Source: Lachnospiraceae bacterium (GTDB taxonomy: Bacteria; Bacillota; Clostridia; Lachnospirales; Lachnospiraceae). From it: DNA of 64,000 nucleotides. The stretch lies in NCBI GenBank assembly GCA_017557525.1, contig JAFYYN010000147.1, forward strand, positions 1 to 64,000, written 5' to 3'. Under the pieces are notes generated by a model, which saw only the letters and a list, made by a program, of their open reading frames with translations, was not told the origin of the DNA and did no database searches. The position numbers and the translations under genes are program-made. Below are positions 563 through 12,008 of the stretch, one piece after another (the stretch's first letter is position 1; each line of letters starts with the position of its first letter).

Positions 563-1132
563 TTAAAAATTTTTCTTTATGCACTCTACAGCCTTGTCAT
601 AATGAACTTTTGCGACCTTGATACTGATCCCCATGATCTCCGCCGCCTCCGTGATCGTGTACCCTTCAAGTCCGATCAGCTCTATGGCCTGCTTCTGGCG
701 GTCTGTCATCTTTGTTGCAATGATCTCACGGAGTTTCAGCACATCATCCGAATCATCCATATCTGCAAAAGGATCGTAGCTTGCACCAGCAAGGATGCTG
801 CTCTTGCTCACATCCCCGTCAACGCACTCATCCATAAGGGACTCAATGCTCAGGTTCCAGTTCATCGGATACTTTTCACCGGGATGCTCTTCTTCCCACG
901 CCTTCTTATCAGCTTTCTGCTGTTCCGTGAGTTTGGGATGTCCGTTCCTTCCAATATTGGTGATCCAGTTGTCATCCCACCTGTTAAGGGTATGAATCAG
1001 TACTTCCGTTGTGCCATCATCGCCGGGCTTGATAATGTTATACGTTGTCCTGTAACCGCCCTTACCGTCGGGAACATCCACCGGATAACGGTAAACATTC
1101 CTCTGATCTGACCTTGTTTTCTTTACTCTCAT
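563..1132 (-). CDS. Sigma-70 region 4-like DNA-binding protein of the mobile element
   Basis: The C-terminal 60 residues form a helix-turn-helix of the sigma-70 region 4 type (LTDRQKQAIELIGLEGYTIT-like start, then EAAEIMGISIKVAKVHYDKA), and the remainder carries no region 2 motif. Proteins of this kind on Firmicute elements are annotated as sigma-like or phage regulators and probably bind DNA rather than act as full sigma factors. The open frame extends upstream to 1252, but the ATG at 1132 is preceded by AAAGGAGG seven bases away and begins the natural MRVKKTRSDQ sequence. A terminator follows. The leader upstream is highly structured (see 1162-1310). About 190 residues. Confidence 0.6.
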   Translation of the reverse strand: MRVKKTRSDQRNVYRYPVDVPDGKGGYRTTYNIIKPGDDGTTEVLIHTLNRWDDNWITNIGRNGHPKLTEQQKADKKAWEEEHPGEKYPMNWNLSIESLMDECVDGDVSKSSILAGASYDPFADMDDSDDVLKLREIIATKMTDRQKQAIELIGLEGYTITEAAEIMGISIKVAKVHYDKAVECIKKNF

Positions 1133-1161
1133 AATTGCCTCCTTTGCTGACCTGGGAGACA

Positions 1162-1310
1162 ATGAGAGCAGGATACCCGGCATGGAATTTCGACCGAAGT
1201 ACCCTTTGCGACCGTAAAAAGAGCGCATGAAAACAAGGGTACCTACATCCACTTCCGGCAGATGTCTTTATCACAACTGCTTTCGGTGGTATGTCGTATC
1301 CTGCCCTCAT
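1162..1310 (-). ncRNA. Candidate structured leader RNA (15-bp closing stem, multi-way junction)
   Basis: Positions 1162-1176 pair with 1296-1310 over 15 bp with a single wobble. Inside, GTACCCTT (1199-1206) pairs perfectly with AAGGGTAC (1235-1242), and ACATC (1245-1249) with GATGT (1261-1265), giving a three-way or more complex junction. On the minus strand this folds just ahead of the ribosome binding site of the sigma-like gene, so it could be a regulatory leader or a processed small RNA. No known riboswitch class was recognised. Structure is read from the sequence; function is inference. Confidence 0.45.
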
Positions 1311-1844: not shown

Positions 1845-1872
1845 AGACCCTCCGAATTGTCTCGGAAGGTCT
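1845..1872 (-). terminator. Intrinsic terminator of the hamB gene
   Basis: Arms at 1845-1855 and 1862-1872 form an 11-bp stem (one wobble) with a 6-base loop; on the minus strand it is followed by a run of six U. It begins 19 bases after the helicase stop codon and closes the defence operon. Confidence 0.8.
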
Positions 1873-1890
1873 GAACAGATATGGAACCGT

Positions 1891-4506
1891 CTAATCTACG
1901 AACAGTTCCGGAATATTGAATTGTAGATCGTGGGCATCCGTCTCAACAGTATCGTTGCCGCACTCCATAATAGATTTTTTGACTTTATATTCACCATCAA
2001 TAAAAGTCAAATATTTGTGTTGGTTCGCTTGGATATAGGATGCTGTTTCCCTTGTGAACCCTGTTTGCTGTAGGAATATTGTTACCGGGCTTGTCGTTCC
2101 GTATTCCACATATTCATACCAATCGTTTTCAAAATACTCGCACTGGTGGTATTCCTTATATTCCAAGGACACTTTGCGGAAATAGTTTGAAATACTAAAG
2201 AGCAAAACATTTTCAATTACGCCCAATGTGTCAGCAATAACATAATTCTGGTGAAGTTTGGAATCCTTATTATAATAATCGGCATATTTAACTCCGCCAA
2301 CCCATACGCCAGTATTCGGATGATTCGCCTTAAATCTAAGAGAACTGCTTATTATCTGATTTAAGCCGTTCCCTCTAATCCATCTCAAAAGAATTTGAGA
2401 GTACCATCGAATAACAGAATCTATCCGATTTGTTCCTTCTCGCCCGATTGTTTCTTTTTCATATACATCCCATTTAAAGATTTTGCGAAGCCGCATCATA
2501 AAACGAACGACCTCTTCAAAATCAACATCATCGTTTTCTCCACTCAATAAAGGATACTCCAATCCATTAACTATGGCATCATGGAGACTTTCAGATTGAT
2601 CGTATGACATTGTTATATCGTCATCTGTCTTTTCTACCGGAAAATTCTGTTTTATAAGCTTTTCCTTCTCTTCATTCAATGCTTCGGAATCCAAAAAAGC
2701 TCTTCTTACCGGTGTGTCTTGATCAAGGGCAATATCTCTTGCTAAAATAAGTGCAAATTTTCTCAGTCCTTCATAGTTACCGGGATTTGCTTCCTGACAC
2801 TTAGGCAGCTCAACTTCACCCTCCACAAGATCCTCTACGATATCTTCATAATGTGCTTTTGTATCAGGTGCATCAAGCGATACAATCTGAGGCGGAATAT
2901 CATTTTTCAAATATTCCTCATAGCGTGCTTCTTTAACCTTTTCATTGTCTCTTATCAAGAATACATTTCCGTAAAGATTGTATCTGATTCTGCCTACTCT
3001 TCCAACAAGATTGCGGAACTCAACAGGTGTCATATTGGGCTGTCCATTCCTATAGCTTGTTATAAAAAGATTATCTGCCGGAAGATTTACACCCTCAATC
3101 AATGTACTTGTGCAAAATATAGTTCTGAGATATCCATCCTTAAAAGCCTTTTCAATGCTTAATCGTATACTTGCGGGCAAATAACCAACATGATATGCCA
3201 CTCCCATCTTTATAAAATCTGCAAGATAACAATTACTATGAACTTCTCTCTTGACGGCTTCAGCCAAACGTATAAGGTGCTCATCTGTTGATGGCATTAG
3301 GTTTTGAACATATCTATTTGCGTATTCCAGCACCTTCGTTTTTGAACTGCAATATACGAGATTCTGCTTCCCTCTTCCAACTTGGCTAACAATTCCCGGA
3401 AGAGAATCATCTGTAAACATATAATCCAAAGGAATCGATGTTTTCGTGTATTCATTATATGCAGATACTGTTTTGTCATGCGTGTTCAACAAATATTTAA
3501 GTTGGCAAACAGGACTGTACTTTGATGCCAGTTTCTTAAACTCTTTTCTATGTCCATTCGGTATAAGGTTTATGAACACCTCCGGGTTAGGTATACTCGG
3601 AGACGCAAAAATTATGTTGGGATCCTTACCGGATTCATACAGCTTGGCAATTACTTTATAGTAATATGTACTTCTCCCGCCTTTATAAGATATTTTATGT
3701 GCCTCATCGATAAACAGAAAATGAATAGGGATCTTGGGTTTATCAATCAGTAAATGCAGAAACCTCTCCGGTGTCATCACAAAAATAAAATGATGCTCCT
3801 GTTTCAAAAGATAGTCTCCAGATGACACAATTACTCTATAATCCCTGTCCTTTGCCATCTCCCCTTGTAGCGAATTTAGGAAGCTGCTTCGCACCTCATT
3901 TATCAATGCTTTCGTAGGCACAAGTATCGCATAATTCTCTTCGGAGCCGTGCTTTATACATTCCTCGATGTATGTCTGAACCACAAATGATTTTCCCATT
4001 GATGTGGGGCCGGAATAGCTAAAGCATTTTCCACCGAGACCGTCATATACTATTTTCTGATCTGAGAAAAAGTATTCCTTCTCTTTGCCGGGAATCTGAT
4101 GGTTATCTCTGTCAAAGTCATAGTAAATACTGTCAAACATATCTATGCTCTTGAAATCATTGATTGTTTCTGACTGAAGAGCACGATAATTACCGAGTGA
4201 AGATAATACAGATCCTAGATAATATTTTATAATCTCATTTTCCGGATACAATAAATTGAGCAGGATAGCTATCTCCTGCCCCCATAGATGATGCCGCTCC
4301 GCATTCTCTTTATGCGTAGACTTTGCAAGCAGATCCGCAAATCTGACTGCATCCTTTACATTTATTTCTTTTAGCGGCCTATTATATCCAAAGAGTCTGA
4401 TCGAATAATTCGTTCTAAGAGCATCATATATCTCATTCAGATATTCATTCTTTTCTATATCCCTGTACAGTGCTTCTGACAGGGTTTCATCTCTTGGAAT
4501 CTGCAT
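1891..4506 (-). CDS. hamB: HamB-like DEAD/DEAH helicase of a Hachiman/AbpAB-type defence pair
   Basis: This 871-residue superfamily 2 helicase shows Walker A GPTSMGKS (about 166-173), the ATPase box FIDEAH (265-270), a motif V-like STLIEGVNLPA (467-477) and motif VI GRVGR (502-506). About 370 residues follow the motor core without a recognised domain. It directly follows a DUF1837 gene, with one base between them and a GGGAGG site inside that gene's 3' end. DUF1837 plus helicase is the signature of Hachiman (HamA-HamB) and of the related AbpA-AbpB phage-resistance pair, where the helicase senses or loads on DNA and releases the partner nuclease. No HD domain is seen, so it is not Cas3. Its exact subtype is inference. 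Confidence 0.75.
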   Translation of the reverse strand: MQIPRDETLSEALYRDIEKNEYLNEIYDALRTNYSIRLFGYNRPLKEINVKDAVRFADLLAKSTHKENAERHHLWGQEIAILLNLLYPENEIIKYYLGSVLSSLGNYRALQSETINDFKSIDMFDSIYYDFDRDNHQIPGKEKEYFFSDQKIVYDGLGGKCFSYSGPTSMGKSFVVQTYIEECIKHGSEENYAILVPTKALINEVRSSFLNSLQGEMAKDRDYRVIVSSGDYLLKQEHHFIFVMTPERFLHLLIDKPKIPIHFLFIDEAHKISYKGGRSTYYYKVIAKLYESGKDPNIIFASPSIPNPEVFINLIPNGHRKEFKKLASKYSPVCQLKYLLNTHDKTVSAYNEYTKTSIPLDYMFTDDSLPGIVSQVGRGKQNLVYCSSKTKVLEYANRYVQNLMPSTDEHLIRLAEAVKREVHSNCYLADFIKMGVAYHVGYLPASIRLSIEKAFKDGYLRTIFCTSTLIEGVNLPADNLFITSYRNGQPNMTPVEFRNLVGRVGRIRYNLYGNVFLIRDNEKVKEARYEEYLKNDIPPQIVSLDAPDTKAHYEDIVEDLVEGEVELPKCQEANPGNYEGLRKFALILARDIALDQDTPVRRAFLDSEALNEEKEKLIKQNFPVEKTDDDITMSYDQSESLHDAIVNGLEYPLLSGENDDVDFEEVVRFMMRLRKIFKWDVYEKETIGREGTNRIDSVIRWYSQILLRWIRGNGLNQIISSSLRFKANHPNTGVWVGGVKYADYYNKDSKLHQNYVIADTLGVIENVLLFSISNYFRKVSLEYKEYHQCEYFENDWYEYVEYGTTSPVTIFLQQTGFTRETASYIQANQHKYLTFIDGEYKVKKSIMECGNDTVETDAHDLQFNIPELFVD

Positions 4507-4507
4507 T

Positions 4508-5962
4508 CTAAGCCCTCCCTATCATTTCCTCAACAAGCCCTACCTTTTCAGCCGGAGCATCATTAAAAGGAAGCACGTAAAAGTAAAAACTATATCCTTC
4601 AAGATGAGCTGCAACAACCTTTTGTTCTATGTATTTCTCAATATCAGCAATATCTGCTGCCATCTTATCCCGTGCAGCCGCTCTAAATCTATCATTATTT
4701 GATTCCGGATGAGGAAGTGTAAGCGTATAACCTAAAAAACAGCCAAACGCCATATCGCGCTCAGTTCCCTTATTCTTTTCAGGAATCAATATGCTCTTTA
4801 TATAATTATTTACCTCAGGTCTGAATACACTCTGTGTTCTCGTATTATCAACAAGCTGTAACTCATCCTCATAATTGTTTTCGATGGCAATAATTTTTTG
4901 AAAAGCATTATCAACAGCTGAATGAAGATCTCCGACAATATTGGAAGCTCCAAATACAAGCTGATGAAAAGGAATACCTCTATCATCCGACACAAGCAAA
5001 TGCACGCCATCGCTCTTGCTTTTCATCAATCCGCCAACATCATCTATTTCTATTTTTGTAAGTATCTTAGGAGCATCAAGCTCCTGTTCGAGGAATACAT
5101 ACAGCAGAGTTTCTCCCAGAATAGATTCTGCAGATGCATCAAAAGCTTTGATGTACCGCAATAGAGCCTCCGTTCCCATTGCGGCACTTTTTCCTACTTT
5201 ATCCATTCTGGCAGCCTTTTCCCTCGACATAACATAGTTGCTGATATTGCTAACAAGGAACTCTTTTGCATTTTTAAAGCGAAGCTTACTGTTCATCATA
5301 TCCACAGTATAGATCTGAACAGTAGAATGATTTGCAACACCGACCACATCAAGTTCCGATACCTTTTCAAATGTTCTGTTAAAAACAGGATCCTTTAAGC
5401 TTCTATTCAAGGGAAGAATCTGCTCTGCATCTGAACTCTCAAAATAGACAGGAACATCTGAATCATCAAAGCTCTCTACGAAATCTTTATCGATTTCTTT
5501 TATTGCTTCAAAGCAATCATCCTTAACCTCTGTTATTGCAAAGAAGAAAACCGATGCAAGCACAGCAGAGAATGATACTTTAGGCATTTCTATCAGATTT
5601 CGTTTTTCGTAACCGTGAATATAGCCTACAACGGTATAGTCTTTTATCGTTTCATCTTCATCAAGAACGCTTTTGATAGCTCTTATTACAGATTCTTTTT
5701 TTACATTTTTAATATGCTTAACAACTTCATTTTGAAAACCAATATCTGCTGCTTCGAAATCCAGTTTTCCGGCAGCATCTTTTAACGGTCCTGGTACATT
5801 ATCGTGCCCACTCTTAAGATGGCCAGATGTCGAACCACAGTGCTCAAAATCCGCTCCAAATGCCTTGAATATAGAAGAGCACAGCACATCATTCGTAACT
5901 TTAGAATTGTTACGCGCTTGATACAATATGTTCAATAGTGTACCTAAGCATAAACGCTTCAT
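4508..5962 (-). CDS. hamA: HamA-like DUF1837 protein with a long N-terminal extension
   Basis: The C-terminal half of this 484-residue protein resembles DUF1837: GETLLYVFLEQ (283-293), SKSDGVHLLVS (315-325), and QLVFGASNIVGDLHSAVDNAF-like text from 334. DUF1837 proteins such as HamA and AbpA are the nuclease partners in Hachiman-type phage defence. The usual family is about 250-300 residues; here some 230 extra residues precede it, beginning MKRLCLGTLLNILYQARNN, with no recognised catalytic motif. A typical E-x-K nuclease dyad is not obvious (QLVFGAS stands where one might look), so catalysis may use other residues or be weak. Start is set by AAGGAGGACACGGC before the ATG. The restriction nuclease gene ends 38 bases upstream, suggesting one operon. 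Confidence 0.65.
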   Translation of the reverse strand: MKRLCLGTLLNILYQARNNSKVTNDVLCSSIFKAFGADFEHCGSTSGHLKSGHDNVPGPLKDAAGKLDFEAADIGFQNEVVKHIKNVKKESVIRAIKSVLDEDETIKDYTVVGYIHGYEKRNLIEMPKVSFSAVLASVFFFAITEVKDDCFEAIKEIDKDFVESFDDSDVPVYFESSDAEQILPLNRSLKDPVFNRTFEKVSELDVVGVANHSTVQIYTVDMMNSKLRFKNAKEFLVSNISNYVMSREKAARMDKVGKSAAMGTEALLRYIKAFDASAESILGETLLYVFLEQELDAPKILTKIEIDDVGGLMKSKSDGVHLLVSDDRGIPFHQLVFGASNIVGDLHSAVDNAFQKIIAIENNYEDELQLVDNTRTQSVFRPEVNNYIKSILIPEKNKGTERDMAFGCFLGYTLTLPHPESNNDRFRAAARDKMAADIADIEKYIEQKVVAAHLEGYSFYFYVLPFNDAPAEKVGLVEEMIGRA

Positions 5963-6000: not shown

Positions 6001-7971
6001 TTAGGCTAATATAAAATATCCTTTTTCAAAATAATCAGCATTTGCTGGCACTATCTGTGGTTCAACTTCTCCCTCGAACGCTACAAGTATATAATCTTCT
6101 TTAATTCCCACCACACATCCAATACGATTTTTAATGGTATCCTTTATGCGTGAGCCAAAGTATATTCCATATGGGAAATCATATTTCCTCCCACAATAAG
6201 TATTATCCTCTGCAACCATCGATGCATTAGTTTCGGTGCTCTTATATAGTTCAGCCAGTTTTTTTGCATATATCCCTATACGGATGGCGCTGTCAATATG
6301 AGCCTTCCACGCCGGAGCTTCCATCACATCCCGTTTACTGGAACAATACTCAATAAGCTCCACAAGTTTTTCCGGACTTGCCTGATTCGTCTTAAACATC
6401 CTCTCAAAAAACACTTGGAACTGAGCAAGAGAAATCGGAACTATATTAAGTCTTTGTCTCTCATCACCCTTCGCATACCACACTCCATGCCTAAACGTTT
6501 CAGCTGTATTGGTATCTATTCTCACAGCTATAAACATTCCGTACACCGGCTTGGAATAAGCAAGAACTGCATCTGAAACATGTCGCCTTACAGGCTCACC
6601 CTCCATGGCTTCTTGCCTCGATGATGTTGACATCGTCACCTCAGTAAGTATTGTGAATTTCTCGAATTCACAGTAAAGATCGCCTTTCCCTCCACCAGCG
6701 GCAGAAACCGGCATAAAATCAGAATCCAAGCGAAAGCCTCTTACTTCATAGGGCTTATTCACCAAATGATCTATTGCAAGTGCCGCTCTCCACAGAGTCC
6801 ATTCAAGATATGCCGGCGTCTCATCCTTCGGGACCTCAATGACATTATCATCGTCATATTCCTTCTTGCCTCCGCCTTTAATGAGAAGTGACATATAATC
6901 CGATATTTCCTGCCACCTGTTCTTTTGATCAGCTGCGTAGTTGATCTCATCTGTCTGAGCCATAGTATCTTCCAGCCGTCTTCTTGCAATGTTCACTTCT
7001 GCTGGCGTATCTAATGGCAAATCTGTAATATCAAAGATGATATTCCTCTCCTTCATCTGTTTCATCAGATCAGAGAGCACTTTTTTAGCAACATCAATAT
7101 TATCTGTTGGAAGCGGAGCACCCGTTGTTAGGTCTTTAAACACATCCAGCATAGGCTCCGTGCTTGCAGTTGTCTTTGCAAGAGCCTCAGCAATGATATG
7201 TTTGGATGGGACAATGATAAGGCCCCTACCTTTCCTCTGCAGAACTCCGGAAATCCTAAGATACCGCATGTTCATATCACAGTAATCAAGAAAATTATCG
7301 CTCTTCTTATCATAGTGTTGTCCGCGCTCGTTTATTTCTTTCCTGTCAAAAGGTCTTTTTGCAGGTGCATTTTTTCTTCTTTCTCGAAGATCAAGAATAT
7401 GATCCACCACTTCGTTGATATCGTAACTCGGGTCTGTCGTATGCCCCCAAAGTCCGAACTCAATTCTTGAAAACTCTGATGATCCGGTTCTTTTTTCAAG
7501 TTCCAGCATAATTGCAAGTATCCACCTAAACGGAGAAAAATGTGCGCTTCCGTCTGGTAGCCAGTATTGCTCAACCGCAAGCGAACGAAGAAAACACTCC
7601 TGCATCGCAGGAATAGTGTCAGCCTTGATGAATGTTCTCCCAAACGGAGTAATGTCGTCCATCTTTCCTAATGTATCCTGTTCAAAGCCATTCTGTTTCT
7701 TTGCCTGTCCATATATAAAGCCATAGCGTTCAAACATCAAACGCCACTTCCTTGCATGACTACCTGAAGGATCCTTACCGCTTTCATTGTTTATGATTCC
7801 CTTATCATCAAGGAATTTCATAAAACCCATCTCATTTTCATTTCCGTGAAGATTCCCCACATACGGTGATTGCGAAAATGCGATAAAGCCCTCCTGAATA
7901 CGCATTGGATTTCTGAGTCCGGTATTCCCTGCTAACCATATGTTTATTACTTCATTATCGTCTATTCTCAT
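6001..7971 (-). CDS. AlwI-family type IIS restriction endonuclease
   Basis: A protein of about 656 residues whose opening (NTGLRNPMRIQEG) and central text (SPFRWILAIMLELEKRTG) resemble the AlwI family. A PD-(D/E)xK-like core is visible around residues 430-465: GDLYCEF, then TILTEVTMSTSSRQ, then MEGEPVRRHV, a phrase typical of AlwI-like nucleases. AlwI cuts outside the asymmetric site GGATC; the exact site of this enzyme is unknown. Downstream of a two-domain adenine methyltransferase, as type IIS systems need one methylase activity per strand. An ATG at 7986 overlaps the methylase stop, but the ATG at 7971 has GAGGTGG six bases before it and is preferred. Protects against incoming DNA lacking the methylation. 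Confidence 0.75.
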   Translation of the reverse strand: MRIDDNEVINIWLAGNTGLRNPMRIQEGFIAFSQSPYVGNLHGNENEMGFMKFLDDKGIINNESGKDPSGSHARKWRLMFERYGFIYGQAKKQNGFEQDTLGKMDDITPFGRTFIKADTIPAMQECFLRSLAVEQYWLPDGSAHFSPFRWILAIMLELEKRTGSSEFSRIEFGLWGHTTDPSYDINEVVDHILDLRERRKNAPAKRPFDRKEINERGQHYDKKSDNFLDYCDMNMRYLRISGVLQRKGRGLIIVPSKHIIAEALAKTTASTEPMLDVFKDLTTGAPLPTDNIDVAKKVLSDLMKQMKERNIIFDITDLPLDTPAEVNIARRRLEDTMAQTDEINYAADQKNRWQEISDYMSLLIKGGGKKEYDDDNVIEVPKDETPAYLEWTLWRAALAIDHLVNKPYEVRGFRLDSDFMPVSAAGGGKGDLYCEFEKFTILTEVTMSTSSRQEAMEGEPVRRHVSDAVLAYSKPVYGMFIAVRIDTNTAETFRHGVWYAKGDERQRLNIVPISLAQFQVFFERMFKTNQASPEKLVELIEYCSSKRDVMEAPAWKAHIDSAIRIGIYAKKLAELYKSTETNASMVAEDNTYCGRKYDFPYGIYFGSRIKDTIKNRIGCVVGIKEDYILVAFEGEVEPQIVPANADYFEKGYFILA

Positions 7972-7982
7972 AACCGTCCACC

Positions 7983-9851
7983 TCAAAAACCTACAAATAA
8001 GTATTCCTGAACTGCATTCCTATGTGATTTTGCATCCTTCTGGTTTCCAAAAAAGTATGTATAGTCAATAGGAACAACCTCTACATGAGATTTATATCTT
8101 TCCATAATTTCTACCATTTCTTCCTTGGTAGGCTGACTGTTTGATGAGTATGAAACTATTAAAATGCTATCCTTATATTTCTCAAAAAGACTATCAAACG
8201 CCGCCTCAGCTCCGTCCCTGGATGAGAACGGTGTGGGATATGACTTAAATTTCTTAGTCTTCGTATGATCTTGAAATTCTACACCCTTCCAGTCTCGCGC
8301 CAAACCCTCAATAAAATGATATCTTCGTACATACTCATTGTCTGAAAGCGGCGAATAATATGGCGGATCAATATAGACAAGATCCGGTTTCTCGCCTGGA
8401 ACACTCATCGCGTCTCCCCATATTGAGATATTTGCGCACCCATTATCAAATACCGCATTGTTTACAGCTTCGACATTTTCAAGAAACTGCTGCTCCATTG
8501 AAATCTGCAAATCACGTCTGCCGTCATTATACTTCTCACCCATGCCAACATAAGTAAACAAACCTCTCGGTCTTTTCTTAGTGCATGCTCGAATAAGTGC
8601 AGTCATAGCAATGGAACGTTTATACTCATCTTCCATATTCCATATGTTTGCTCTGAGAGTATCTATAAGCTTGTTGTCATCATCAGAAAAATATAGCCCC
8701 TTAAAGCGCTTCTCCACAAAACGATCCGTCTTTGTCTTTTTTTTCAACAACTCCTTTGCTTCGTCCAGAGGTAGAATAACGGCATTGTTTTCTATCATTG
8801 CTTTGGTAAAGGTTGCAGACATAGCCATATAATCGTTGCTGATAACCTTTTTCCCAAGAGTTTTGAACATATATCCAACAATCCCGGAACCAGAAAACAA
8901 ATCGAGTACAGATTCATATTCAAAATTTTCAGCTACAGCCATAATTTCTGAAAGCAGCTTGCTCTTAGAACCCATGTATCGTGTTGCCGGATACTGCTTA
9001 ACCTGCTCAGGTAGAACTACATCTCCAAGTACAACTTTCCTCGTATCGGGAAAAGCCGTTACAATAGCATCCTCACCGGTTCTCGCATCCCCCTTTGAGG
9101 ATATCGCTCTCTTAGTAGCAACAACATCGATCGTAAAATCACCATATAATTCATGTACAAGCGGATGGTTCGAATTCGTAAGAATCACATAGCATCCCAG
9201 TTTTTGTAATCTCTTGACTTCTTTTGCAAGATTTCTCTGATCTTCTTCATAGAACTGTTCTTTGGTATATCTTTTGAAATCACCCCACTCTGTCACAGGA
9301 ATGTACGGCGGATCAAGAAATATAAAATCACCCGGCTGTGCATATTCGCGAAGCACGTCAAGATAATCCCCACAAACAATCTGTGCATTCTTTAGTATCT
9401 CAGATGCATTATGAAGCAATTCTTCATCACATATCGTTGGATTTTTATAACGTCCGTATGGTGTATTGAATTGTCCCTTTTTATTCACTCTATAAAGGCC
9501 ATTAAAGCAGGTCTTATTCAAATAAAGAGTGCGTGCTGCAGCTTCTTCTGGTAACAATGCGGTCCAATCCAATGCTCTAACTTCATAAAACATTTCTTTT
9601 GTGTTTTCATACGTCTTAAGCTTTTTTATAACCTTGTCAACGGAATTCGCAACCTGTCTATATAGGTTTATAAGCTCAGGATTACTATCGGCAATCACAG
9701 CATTTTCTGGCTGAAGTGCAAGATACAATGCGCCGCCACCAAAGAACGGCTCAATGTATTTTCCAGAATATTCGGGAATACGAGGGAGTAATTCTTTTAG
9801 GAGCTGGCTTTTACCGCCTGCCCATTTCATAATAGGTTTACAACGCTCCAT
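7983..9851 (-). CDS. Fused double Dam-type DNA adenine-N6 methyltransferase of the type IIS system
   Basis: Two complete D12/Dam-type methyltransferase domains lie in one chain of about 622 residues. The first has KWAGGKSQLL, the AdoMet-binding FFGGGALY (about 36-43) and DPPYIP (about 180). The second starts near residue 290 with RYMGSKSKLL, then DLFSGSG (about 317-323) and YIDPPYYSP (about 495). Such fusions, as in M.FokI, methylate the two strands of an asymmetric type IIS site, which fits the AlwI-like nuclease that follows after 11 bases. The ATG at 9851 is chosen because GAGGAGG stands nine bases upstream; an ATG at 9860 touches that site. It overlaps the XRE controller gene by 14 bases, so translation is probably coupled. 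Confidence 0.85.
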   Translation of the reverse strand: MERCKPIMKWAGGKSQLLKELLPRIPEYSGKYIEPFFGGGALYLALQPENAVIADSNPELINLYRQVANSVDKVIKKLKTYENTKEMFYEVRALDWTALLPEEAAARTLYLNKTCFNGLYRVNKKGQFNTPYGRYKNPTICDEELLHNASEILKNAQIVCGDYLDVLREYAQPGDFIFLDPPYIPVTEWGDFKRYTKEQFYEEDQRNLAKEVKRLQKLGCYVILTNSNHPLVHELYGDFTIDVVATKRAISSKGDARTGEDAIVTAFPDTRKVVLGDVVLPEQVKQYPATRYMGSKSKLLSEIMAVAENFEYESVLDLFSGSGIVGYMFKTLGKKVISNDYMAMSATFTKAMIENNAVILPLDEAKELLKKKTKTDRFVEKRFKGLYFSDDDNKLIDTLRANIWNMEDEYKRSIAMTALIRACTKKRPRGLFTYVGMGEKYNDGRRDLQISMEQQFLENVEAVNNAVFDNGCANISIWGDAMSVPGEKPDLVYIDPPYYSPLSDNEYVRRYHFIEGLARDWKGVEFQDHTKTKKFKSYPTPFSSRDGAEAAFDSLFEKYKDSILIVSYSSNSQPTKEEMVEIMERYKSHVEVVPIDYTYFFGNQKDAKSHRNAVQEYLFVGF

Positions 9852-10065
9852 TGTTATCATCCTCCTCGAAGGTCATTTCCATAATATCGTCCAGCTTGCA
9901 ATCAAGAGCTTTACATATCTTTGCAAGCGTGTCAGTTGTAACATTATCACCATGAACAAGTTTATTCATGGTGTAGTGGCTTATCTGAGCCTTCTCTTCA
10001 AGATCTTTCTTTTTCAAATCCTTATCTATCAATAGTTTCCATAGTTTTTTATAGCTTATTTCCAT
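9838..10065 (-). CDS. XRE-family controller (C-protein-like) regulator of the restriction operon
   Basis: A 75-residue protein made almost entirely of a Cro/CI helix-turn-helix: LWKLLIDKDLKKKDLEEKAQ, then ISHYTMNKLVHGD, then VTTDTLAKICKALDCKLDDI, followed by an acidic tail. Small XRE proteins placed first in a restriction-modification operon act as controller proteins that set the order of methylase and nuclease expression. The start at 10065 is five bases after GAGGTG; an ATG directly before it and another at 10083 are worse placed. A sigma-A type promoter lies about 65 bases upstream. It overlaps the methylase start. Whether it activates or represses is not visible. Confidence 0.75.
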   Translation of the reverse strand: MEISYKKLWKLLIDKDLKKKDLEEKAQISHYTMNKLVHGDNVTTDTLAKICKALDCKLDDIMEMTFEEDDNNGAL

Positions 10066-10126
10066 CATTGCACCTCGATACAATACGAATAATCCTTAAA
10101 CAACTCCATATCAGTCCATCCTATAT

Positions 10127-11204: not shown

Positions 11205-12008
11205 TTATGCGGTCTTTGCTTGACTTGTCACTATAATACCACCATCCCCCGTGGCAGATATCAGCAAAGCCCTGTTTTCTCCGGAATTGATTATCTTTTT
11301 GAGATTGGTGATAAATCCAACCTGCATACTATTCGGCTGAAGCTTATATTTCTCAAGGGATATAGTTTCTTCCTGCTTTGCTATCTCCCGTTGTCTTTTT
11401 ATAATCTTATATTTTTCCAGATACTCATCATAAAATTGTTCGAAATCAACTGCATACTCTGAATTCCACAAATGATTAAATTCATCAATTATCTCTTGTG
11501 CAACTTTGCCATGTTCAGTAGATACAAGCTTTGTATTCCATTCAAAATTGGTTGTAAGTGCACTACCAGTTAAATTAGAACTTCCGATGACTATCCTGTA
11601 TATCTCTTCCTTCTTAAAAATATAACCTTTAGTATGAAATCCTCCACCCTTTTCGGAGTTATACATTTTTAAAGTGATGTTCTTTAATTCATGTATTTCC
11701 TTAAGAGCCTTAGGTTCACTAAAGGTTAAATAATCTGTGGTCAGTATTTGCCCCGGGATATTCCTATTCTCAAGTTCTTTTAAGATCTGTTTTAATGGTA
11801 CAAGCCCCGATTCAGTGATAAATGCAACACTGATCTGAAACTTATCACATTTTGAAAGCTCATCTTCAAGAGAGGATAATACTTTTTTACCCTCTAAATG
11901 ATTATTGGATACAAACTGGGGAAGATAAGCACTTTCCGACACAATGTTTCCATCTATATATGCAGTTTCAAATCCTTTTGTTAATTTGTTAAAGCTTTCG
12001 TTATTCAA
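11205..12008 (-). pseudogene. 5' fragment of a phospholipase-D-nuclease/SF2-helicase gene broken at Walker A
   Basis: The 267 residues begin as a PLD-type nuclease domain: FHTKGYIF (about 124-131) and IGSSNLTGSA (141-150) form the HxK and GSxN motifs. A linker follows, and then the first strand of a helicase, ending LLISATG (about 248-254), where a Walker A sequence GTGKT would follow. The frame instead reads DGGIIVTSQAKTA and stops. Proteins with this order are usually around 1000 residues (SSL2-like helicases with DUF3427), so the gene lost its motor on insertion of the element. Start is a TTG at 12008 with GGGGAT before it. A short leader frame (12043) stops within the start codon. The fragment may still make an inactive or stand-alone PLD protein. 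Confidence 0.75.
11240..11249. other. Probable right attachment junction of the mobile element
   Basis: The helicase reading frame on the minus strand runs ...ISATG and should continue as a Walker A T-G-K-T; instead it passes at about 11246 into DGG and ends 13 codons later. The bases GCCACGGGG on the host side meet GATGGTGG on the element side. The exact crossover base cannot be fixed without the left end. Confidence 0.5.

Follow-up and report, generated by a model that had tools for sequence, protein, structure and literature searches.

Variants of the Hachiman protein HamA have been described in which the nuclease is dead and another domain stands in front of it. In AbpA, a Cap4 nuclease precedes a dead HamA and the Cap4 domain is needed for defence (PMC10732053; AbpA is also treated in PMC12278908). 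Similarly, in HamMAB a protease is fused to a dead HamA, with HamM as an MBL nuclease, and the fused domain is required for defence. Once HamB senses DNA, the dead HamA seems to bring the protease into oligomers, and further HamA fusions are mentioned in the supplement (PMC12799240). The ABC-3C systems are counted in the Lamassu superfamily with its varied effectors (PMC10586767). Here, we analysed a stretch of 64,000 nucleotides from a Lachnospiraceae bacterium (the window; GCA_017557525.1, contig JAFYYN010000147.1, positions 1 to 64,000), which carries adjacent genes for HamA and the helicase HamB. The HamA chain lacks the nuclease motif and begins with a helical N-terminal domain (NTD) that it shares with ABC-3C proteins. 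We give an even chance to the reading that this is a nuclease-dead Hachiman whose output may have passed to the NTD, a portable module. The features of the pair, all on the minus strand, are as follows.

4508..5962, minus strand: long HamA gene, 484 aa, identified by open reading frame (ORF) and family match, 38 bases from the endonuclease gene upstream
1891..4506, minus strand: HamB gene, SF2 helicase of 871 aa with Walker A (GPTSMGKS), DEAH and GRVGR present, one base from HamA
5438..5962, minus strand: NTD, HamA residues 1-175, delimited by the AlphaFold2 (AF2) model and by homology to ABC-3C CTD11 proteins
4511..5410, minus strand: HamA-like domain, residues 185-484, PD-(D/E)xK-type fold without E-x-K
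5009..5011, minus strand: D318 codon, encoding the Asp kept from D...GEXK
4940..4951, minus strand: GASN codons, residues 338-341, in place of GEXK

In a preliminary description of the locus, made from the letters alone, a DUF1837 gene and a gene for an SF2 DEAH helicase one base apart were taken as a Hachiman/AbpAB-type pair. This was confirmed by the ORFs and by both family databases: Pfam HamA (PF08878, DUF1837) covers residues 232-466 (E 5e-36), and PADLOC names the pair HamA1 and HamB1. The double length given for HamA was likewise correct with 484 aa, and the long gene is single-copy in the assembly (196 contigs). The DUF1837 part had been placed from about residue 230, which holds for the Pfam match but not for the fold. 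The structural alignment to 8zue_A covers residues 190 to 484, and short relatives align from about 181-197. Therefore, the HamA fold starts near residue 190 and the added front part comprises about 175-185 residues instead of 230. It had also been considered that the whole chain could be an ordinary HamA. Indeed, the PADLOC HamA1 profile PDLC00164 spans residues 1-481 (E 6.6e-168), but with its 490 positions it is itself of the long type, most other HamA profiles among the PADLOC matches having 286-326 positions. Since PDLC00164 matches the chain end to end, the long HamA form is already contained in PADLOC.

The HamA nuclease motif D...GEXK reads D...GASN in the window protein. Accordingly, the earlier remark that no E-x-K dyad can be seen proved right: the quoted stretches SDGVHLL and QLVFGAS are present, and the alignment puts GASN where ordinary HamA has GESK. 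The long-HamA search scored 7998 candidates and gave 293 matches, 119 of which were aligned together with the window protein. Across these 120 rows (mean column identity 61%) the E site is occupied by A in 116, S in 2 and V in 2 rows and by E in none (0/120), a constancy that marks the replacement as conserved in the family and not a slip. Moreover, we aligned 63 locus proteins with that of the window. The loci were gathered via three peptide patterns from the long-HamA alignment, and their 20 ordinary HamA loci represent only the nearest ones and not all of Hachiman. GESK was found at the aligned site in 20/20 of these ordinary short forms, and in the remaining 43 of the 63, whether long or short, the site is not E and E-x-K is absent (43/43). 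Dead and ordinary HamA fall on separated branches (SH-aLRT 100). The preliminary description had raised altered chemistry. In such a reading, HamA would still cut DNA by other residues, namely D318 and neighbouring acids together with a residue of the NTD. The site is under constraint, as D318 is kept in 119 of the 120 long rows and A339-S340 are nearly invariant. However, E and K are both replaced throughout the clade while the HamB motifs are kept, and not all dead relatives retain D318, some of their loci having G, K, E or S instead. In addition, the E138A/K140A exchange in ordinary HamA abolishes defence (PMC12278908), and in published cases dead HamA domains serve as scaffolds (PMC12799240). 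Altered chemistry is thus very unlikely.

HamB matches DEAD and Helicase_C, with 9wh1_B as its best solved relative (E 4e-66). Among the dead loci checked, Walker A is present in 31/31 long and 19/19 short ones, DEAH or DECH in 29/31 and 19/19, and GRxGR in all of them (31 long, 19 short). These observations bear on the idea that the pair is a decaying remnant without function. Decay would account for the lost catalytic residues of HamA, and one relative is visibly broken (L015/L079), its HamA ORF being cut to 425 aa with no HamB found. Against this, both ORFs of the window are open, the 120 rows are strongly conserved, the HamB motifs are intact and the close spacing has been kept, which makes a remnant most improbable. 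In the broken L015/L079 locus the ORF after HamA is unrelated, and a STAND-like gene with an NTD-like start adjoins.

The front of the long chain had been described as an added domain without recognisable motif. That a separate domain is present was borne out by residues 1-175, which on their own gave an all-helical AF2 model (pLDDT 96.3, pTM 0.92). As for the missing motif, neither a Pfam match nor a significant fold match was obtained and the NTD profile matched none of the PDB sequences, but a partial answer came from the finding that the same module also begins ABC-3C CTD11 proteins. When the long-HamA profile was run over 391 class genomes, two proteins besides the window matched the NTD part alone (L089 and L090; E 5e-33 and 9e-24 per genome). 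Both end in ABC-3C CTD11 (E 1e-44 and 3e-26), after which an MC7 gene and an AAA_23 protein follow; these were the only loci in which CTD11 and MC7 were seen. Our ABC-3C set (n=20) consisted of 18 viral-contig relatives of the first NTD-CTD11 protein, found with one query, plus others. The window NTD is 22-26% identical to the ABC-3C copies over its whole length; D103 and K120 are each kept in 19/20 copies and N148 in 20/20. Residue 148 is N in 117 of the 120 long HamA rows and D in the window protein. Besides, the NTD starts an NBR1-Ig protein in locus L039 (E 5e-25), and a weak NTD-like start (E 7e-6, residues 3-106) was seen in a STAND-like TPR protein of L015 for which the STAND models stayed below their cut-offs. 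The NTD is a separate portable module of about 175 residues that recurs N-terminally in other defence-type proteins, and it occupies the N-terminal slot held by the Cap4 nuclease or trypsin in other HamA variants.

Short dead HamA forms come with a different partner. A separate Ig-domain protein was found in 20/26 short dead HamA loci but in 0/40 long and 0/20 ordinary ones; the 40 long forms include the window, which was searched separately in six frames. Fifteen of the 20 positive loci went into the Ig profile itself, which leaves 5 independent finds, two of them near-copies. Five of the six short dead loci without the protein have less than 5 kb of upstream sequence, and the sixth (L041) has 7.9 kb. 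The Ig protein is about 210-316 aa long and carries an NBR1-type Ig domain at its C-terminus (of 6 scanned, 5 passed the PF16158 cut-off); its gene heads the gene run and mostly precedes a small helix-turn-helix (HTH) gene. In L024, L026, L027 and L028 the Ig gene, an HTH gene of 73-75 aa and the short dead HamA gene are consecutive with no restriction gene between, and in other short loci this very position is taken by a type I or III system. In L039 the Ig protein bears the NTD beside a short dead HamA, i.e. the NTD is present in trans.

Under the reading of a nuclease-dead Hachiman with a fused output domain, and by analogy with AbpAB and HamMAB, HamB would detect 3' single-stranded or broken DNA. 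ATP hydrolysis might then release or oligomerise the dead HamA and so relay the signal, upon which the NTD would act on the cell or recruit what acts. The DNA ends read by HamB might partly stem from the companion restriction enzyme of the locus, either when it cuts or when it fails. The output role is supported by the NTD holding the N-terminal slot of ABC-3C proteins. Several results weigh against it. The fold search with the NTD in PDB and BFVD gave no significant match, and no catalytic set is common to the NTD copies, which weakens an output role. H48, K50, D54 and E119, which are invariant in long HamA, are not kept in the ABC-3C copies; since most invariant polar positions are lost there, a binding domain fits as well as an effector. 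Furthermore, the NTD is missing from some short dead HamA proteins and is hence dispensable as such for the dead HamB-HamA core. The helical N-domain of the other Ig proteins showed no detectable kinship to the NTD (hhalign probability 0.2), and no further NTD-Ig protein beyond L039 was found in 391 class genomes (0/391) or on viral contigs.

The pair closes a minus-strand run of five tightly packed genes: XRE, methyltransferase, AlwI-type endonuclease, NTD-HamA and HamB. The upstream part thus contains the methyltransferase and endonuclease genes of a type II restriction-modification (R-M) system. The further features of the run are as follows.

6001..7986, minus strand: AlwI-type restriction endonuclease, 661 aa (RE_AlwI, E 9.8e-98), 38 bases before HamA
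7983..9860, minus strand: adenine methyltransferase containing two catalytic units fused in one chain (MethyltransfD12 in two stretches, E 2.3e-84; PDLC03261 matching from 1 to its full length), overlapping the endonuclease gene by 4 bases
9838..10083, minus strand: first gene of the run, encoding a small Cro/C1-type HTH (XRE) protein (HTH_26, E 4.8e-20) and overlapping the methyltransferase gene by 23 bases
1845..1872, minus strand: terminator-like hairpin of 12 pairs with a T run, directly after HamB

Terminator-like sites are not enriched in the region overall (6 vs 5.1 in shuffles). A PLD-type protein of 267 aa (11205-12008, minus strand) covers only positions 6-259 of the 953-position type IV restriction model PDLC03658 and appears to be a truncated remnant.

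Many dead HamAB pairs have R-M genes (types I, II and III) as direct neighbours, often immediately upstream and on the same strand. The NTD could therefore be an adaptor instead of an effector, tethering the dead HamAB to the restriction enzyme of the same run, which would supply the nuclease. A methyltransferase was found within 8 kb in 33/47 dead loci vs 7/17 ordinary ones when loci with 6 kb of flank or more were counted (Fisher p 0.044; other cut-offs 0.075, 0.040 and 0.023), and the want of a common catalytic set across the contexts of the NTD would suit an adaptor. However, this enrichment is weak, depends on the cut-off and is suggestive only, and ordinary Hachiman also adjoins R-M genes. 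Moreover, no methyltransferase was seen within 8 kb in 14 of the 47 dead loci, no R-M gene separates the pair from the preceding Ig and HTH genes in L024 and L026-L028, and the NTD is also present in ABC-3C loci, where R-M partners were not looked for. On balance, we consider an adaptor unlikely. In L007 a gene for a Vsr mismatch endonuclease (7522-7980; PF03852, E 4e-33) lies between the restriction genes and NTD-HamA. In L014 an ORF of 169 aa (764-1273, minus strand) starts like the XRE protein (76% identity) and continues with the final 120 residues of the AlwI-type endonuclease (51%), as if a deletion had removed the methyltransferase and the larger part of the endonuclease; HamAB remains on the same contig.

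In 20/20 ABC-3C loci, in L039 and in 9/37 long-HamA loci, the NTD gene is preceded by an XRE gene at a distance of at most 24 bases. This association would fit a regulatory or sensing NTD that works with the small XRE protein and sets the expression or activity of the operon. The NTD motif SGHLKSGHDNVP..L, which by eye we take to resemble the recognition-helix region of XRE proteins, points the same way. Comparison of the NTD and XRE profiles, however, gave a probability of 0.4, and 24 of the 37 long loci showed no XRE gene of this family upstream. Small HTH genes commonly head defence operons, which further speaks against a specific partnership. A regulatory NTD therefore appears less plausible still than an adaptor. 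In the window and in 4/37 long loci, XRE and NTD-HamA are separated by restriction genes, as though cassettes had been inserted between an invariable head and tail. Small sigma-factor-like genes, alike by eye, were noted near HamAB and ABC-3C loci (window 563-1252, L025 5848-6342, L028 5976-6485, L089 122-616), and in several relatives (L012, L020-L022, L025) they stand beside phage replication-type genes. Possibly, these neighbourhoods are one prophage hot spot where domains could be exchanged.

Returning to the nuclease-dead Hachiman with its portable front domain, we tentatively extend this reading, with somewhat less than even confidence, to the NTD being an immune effector domain of a new class, or one that recruits effectors. 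Together with its XRE gene, the NTD would be exchanged between the SMC-type sensors of ABC-3C/Lamassu and the helicase-type sensors of Hachiman. The arrival or presence of the NTD would go along with the loss of the HamA nuclease, the Ig protein would do its job in the sister clade, and R-M cassettes would enter between the head gene and HamAB. In the accessible part of the open-access literature, we recognised no description of the NTD, of its sharing with ABC-3C or of the Ig-protein alternative. Next to Cap4 nuclease and trypsin, the published fronts of dead HamA, the NTD would be a third such domain, common to an unrelated sensor system, and would turn effector exchange between helicase- and SMC-based defence into a general rule. 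It would further show that annotation as Hachiman by HMM need not mean a nuclease, as a whole clade is called HamA1 without having one. The question raised in PMC12278908, for what reason a dead HamA persists next to another domain, becomes testable with this compact operon and with the relatives that carry a substitute in trans.

The locus shares features with several known systems. With Hachiman (HamAB of E. coli ECOR31, PDB 8vx9) it has in common the HamA (DUF1837) domain and fold and the adjacent HamB with intact motifs. Ordinary HamA, however, is a nuclease with E138 and K140 (PMC12278908), whereas in the window protein E and K are replaced and 175 residues have been added in front. The closest solved HamB belongs to PDB 9wh1/9whk/9whu (a 528-aa HamA-type chain with an 853-aa helicase), for which we found no describing paper. 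Its HamA domain also lacks E-x-K at the aligned site (LIHSAAF), but its front part was matched neither by the window chain nor by the NTD profile. Similar to AbpAB of E. coli (8zue), the window combines a dead HamA domain with a helicase. AbpA carries a Cap4 nuclease domain, whereas the window chain has no PF14130 match at E up to 10 and its NTD is all-helical without a Pfam match. HamMAB likewise lacks D-GEXK and has a foreign domain before HamA (PMC12799240). In contrast, no protease family was found in the window chain, the three upstream genes on the same strand encode an AlwI endonuclease, a methyltransferase and an XRE protein but no MBL protein, and no HamM-like partner was identified. 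Finally, the ABC-3C or Lamassu-type systems with CTD11 have an NTD homologous over its whole length and an XRE gene preceding the NTD gene. The five-gene run of the window contains no CTD11, MC7 or SMC-like ATPase; here, HamA follows the NTD instead.

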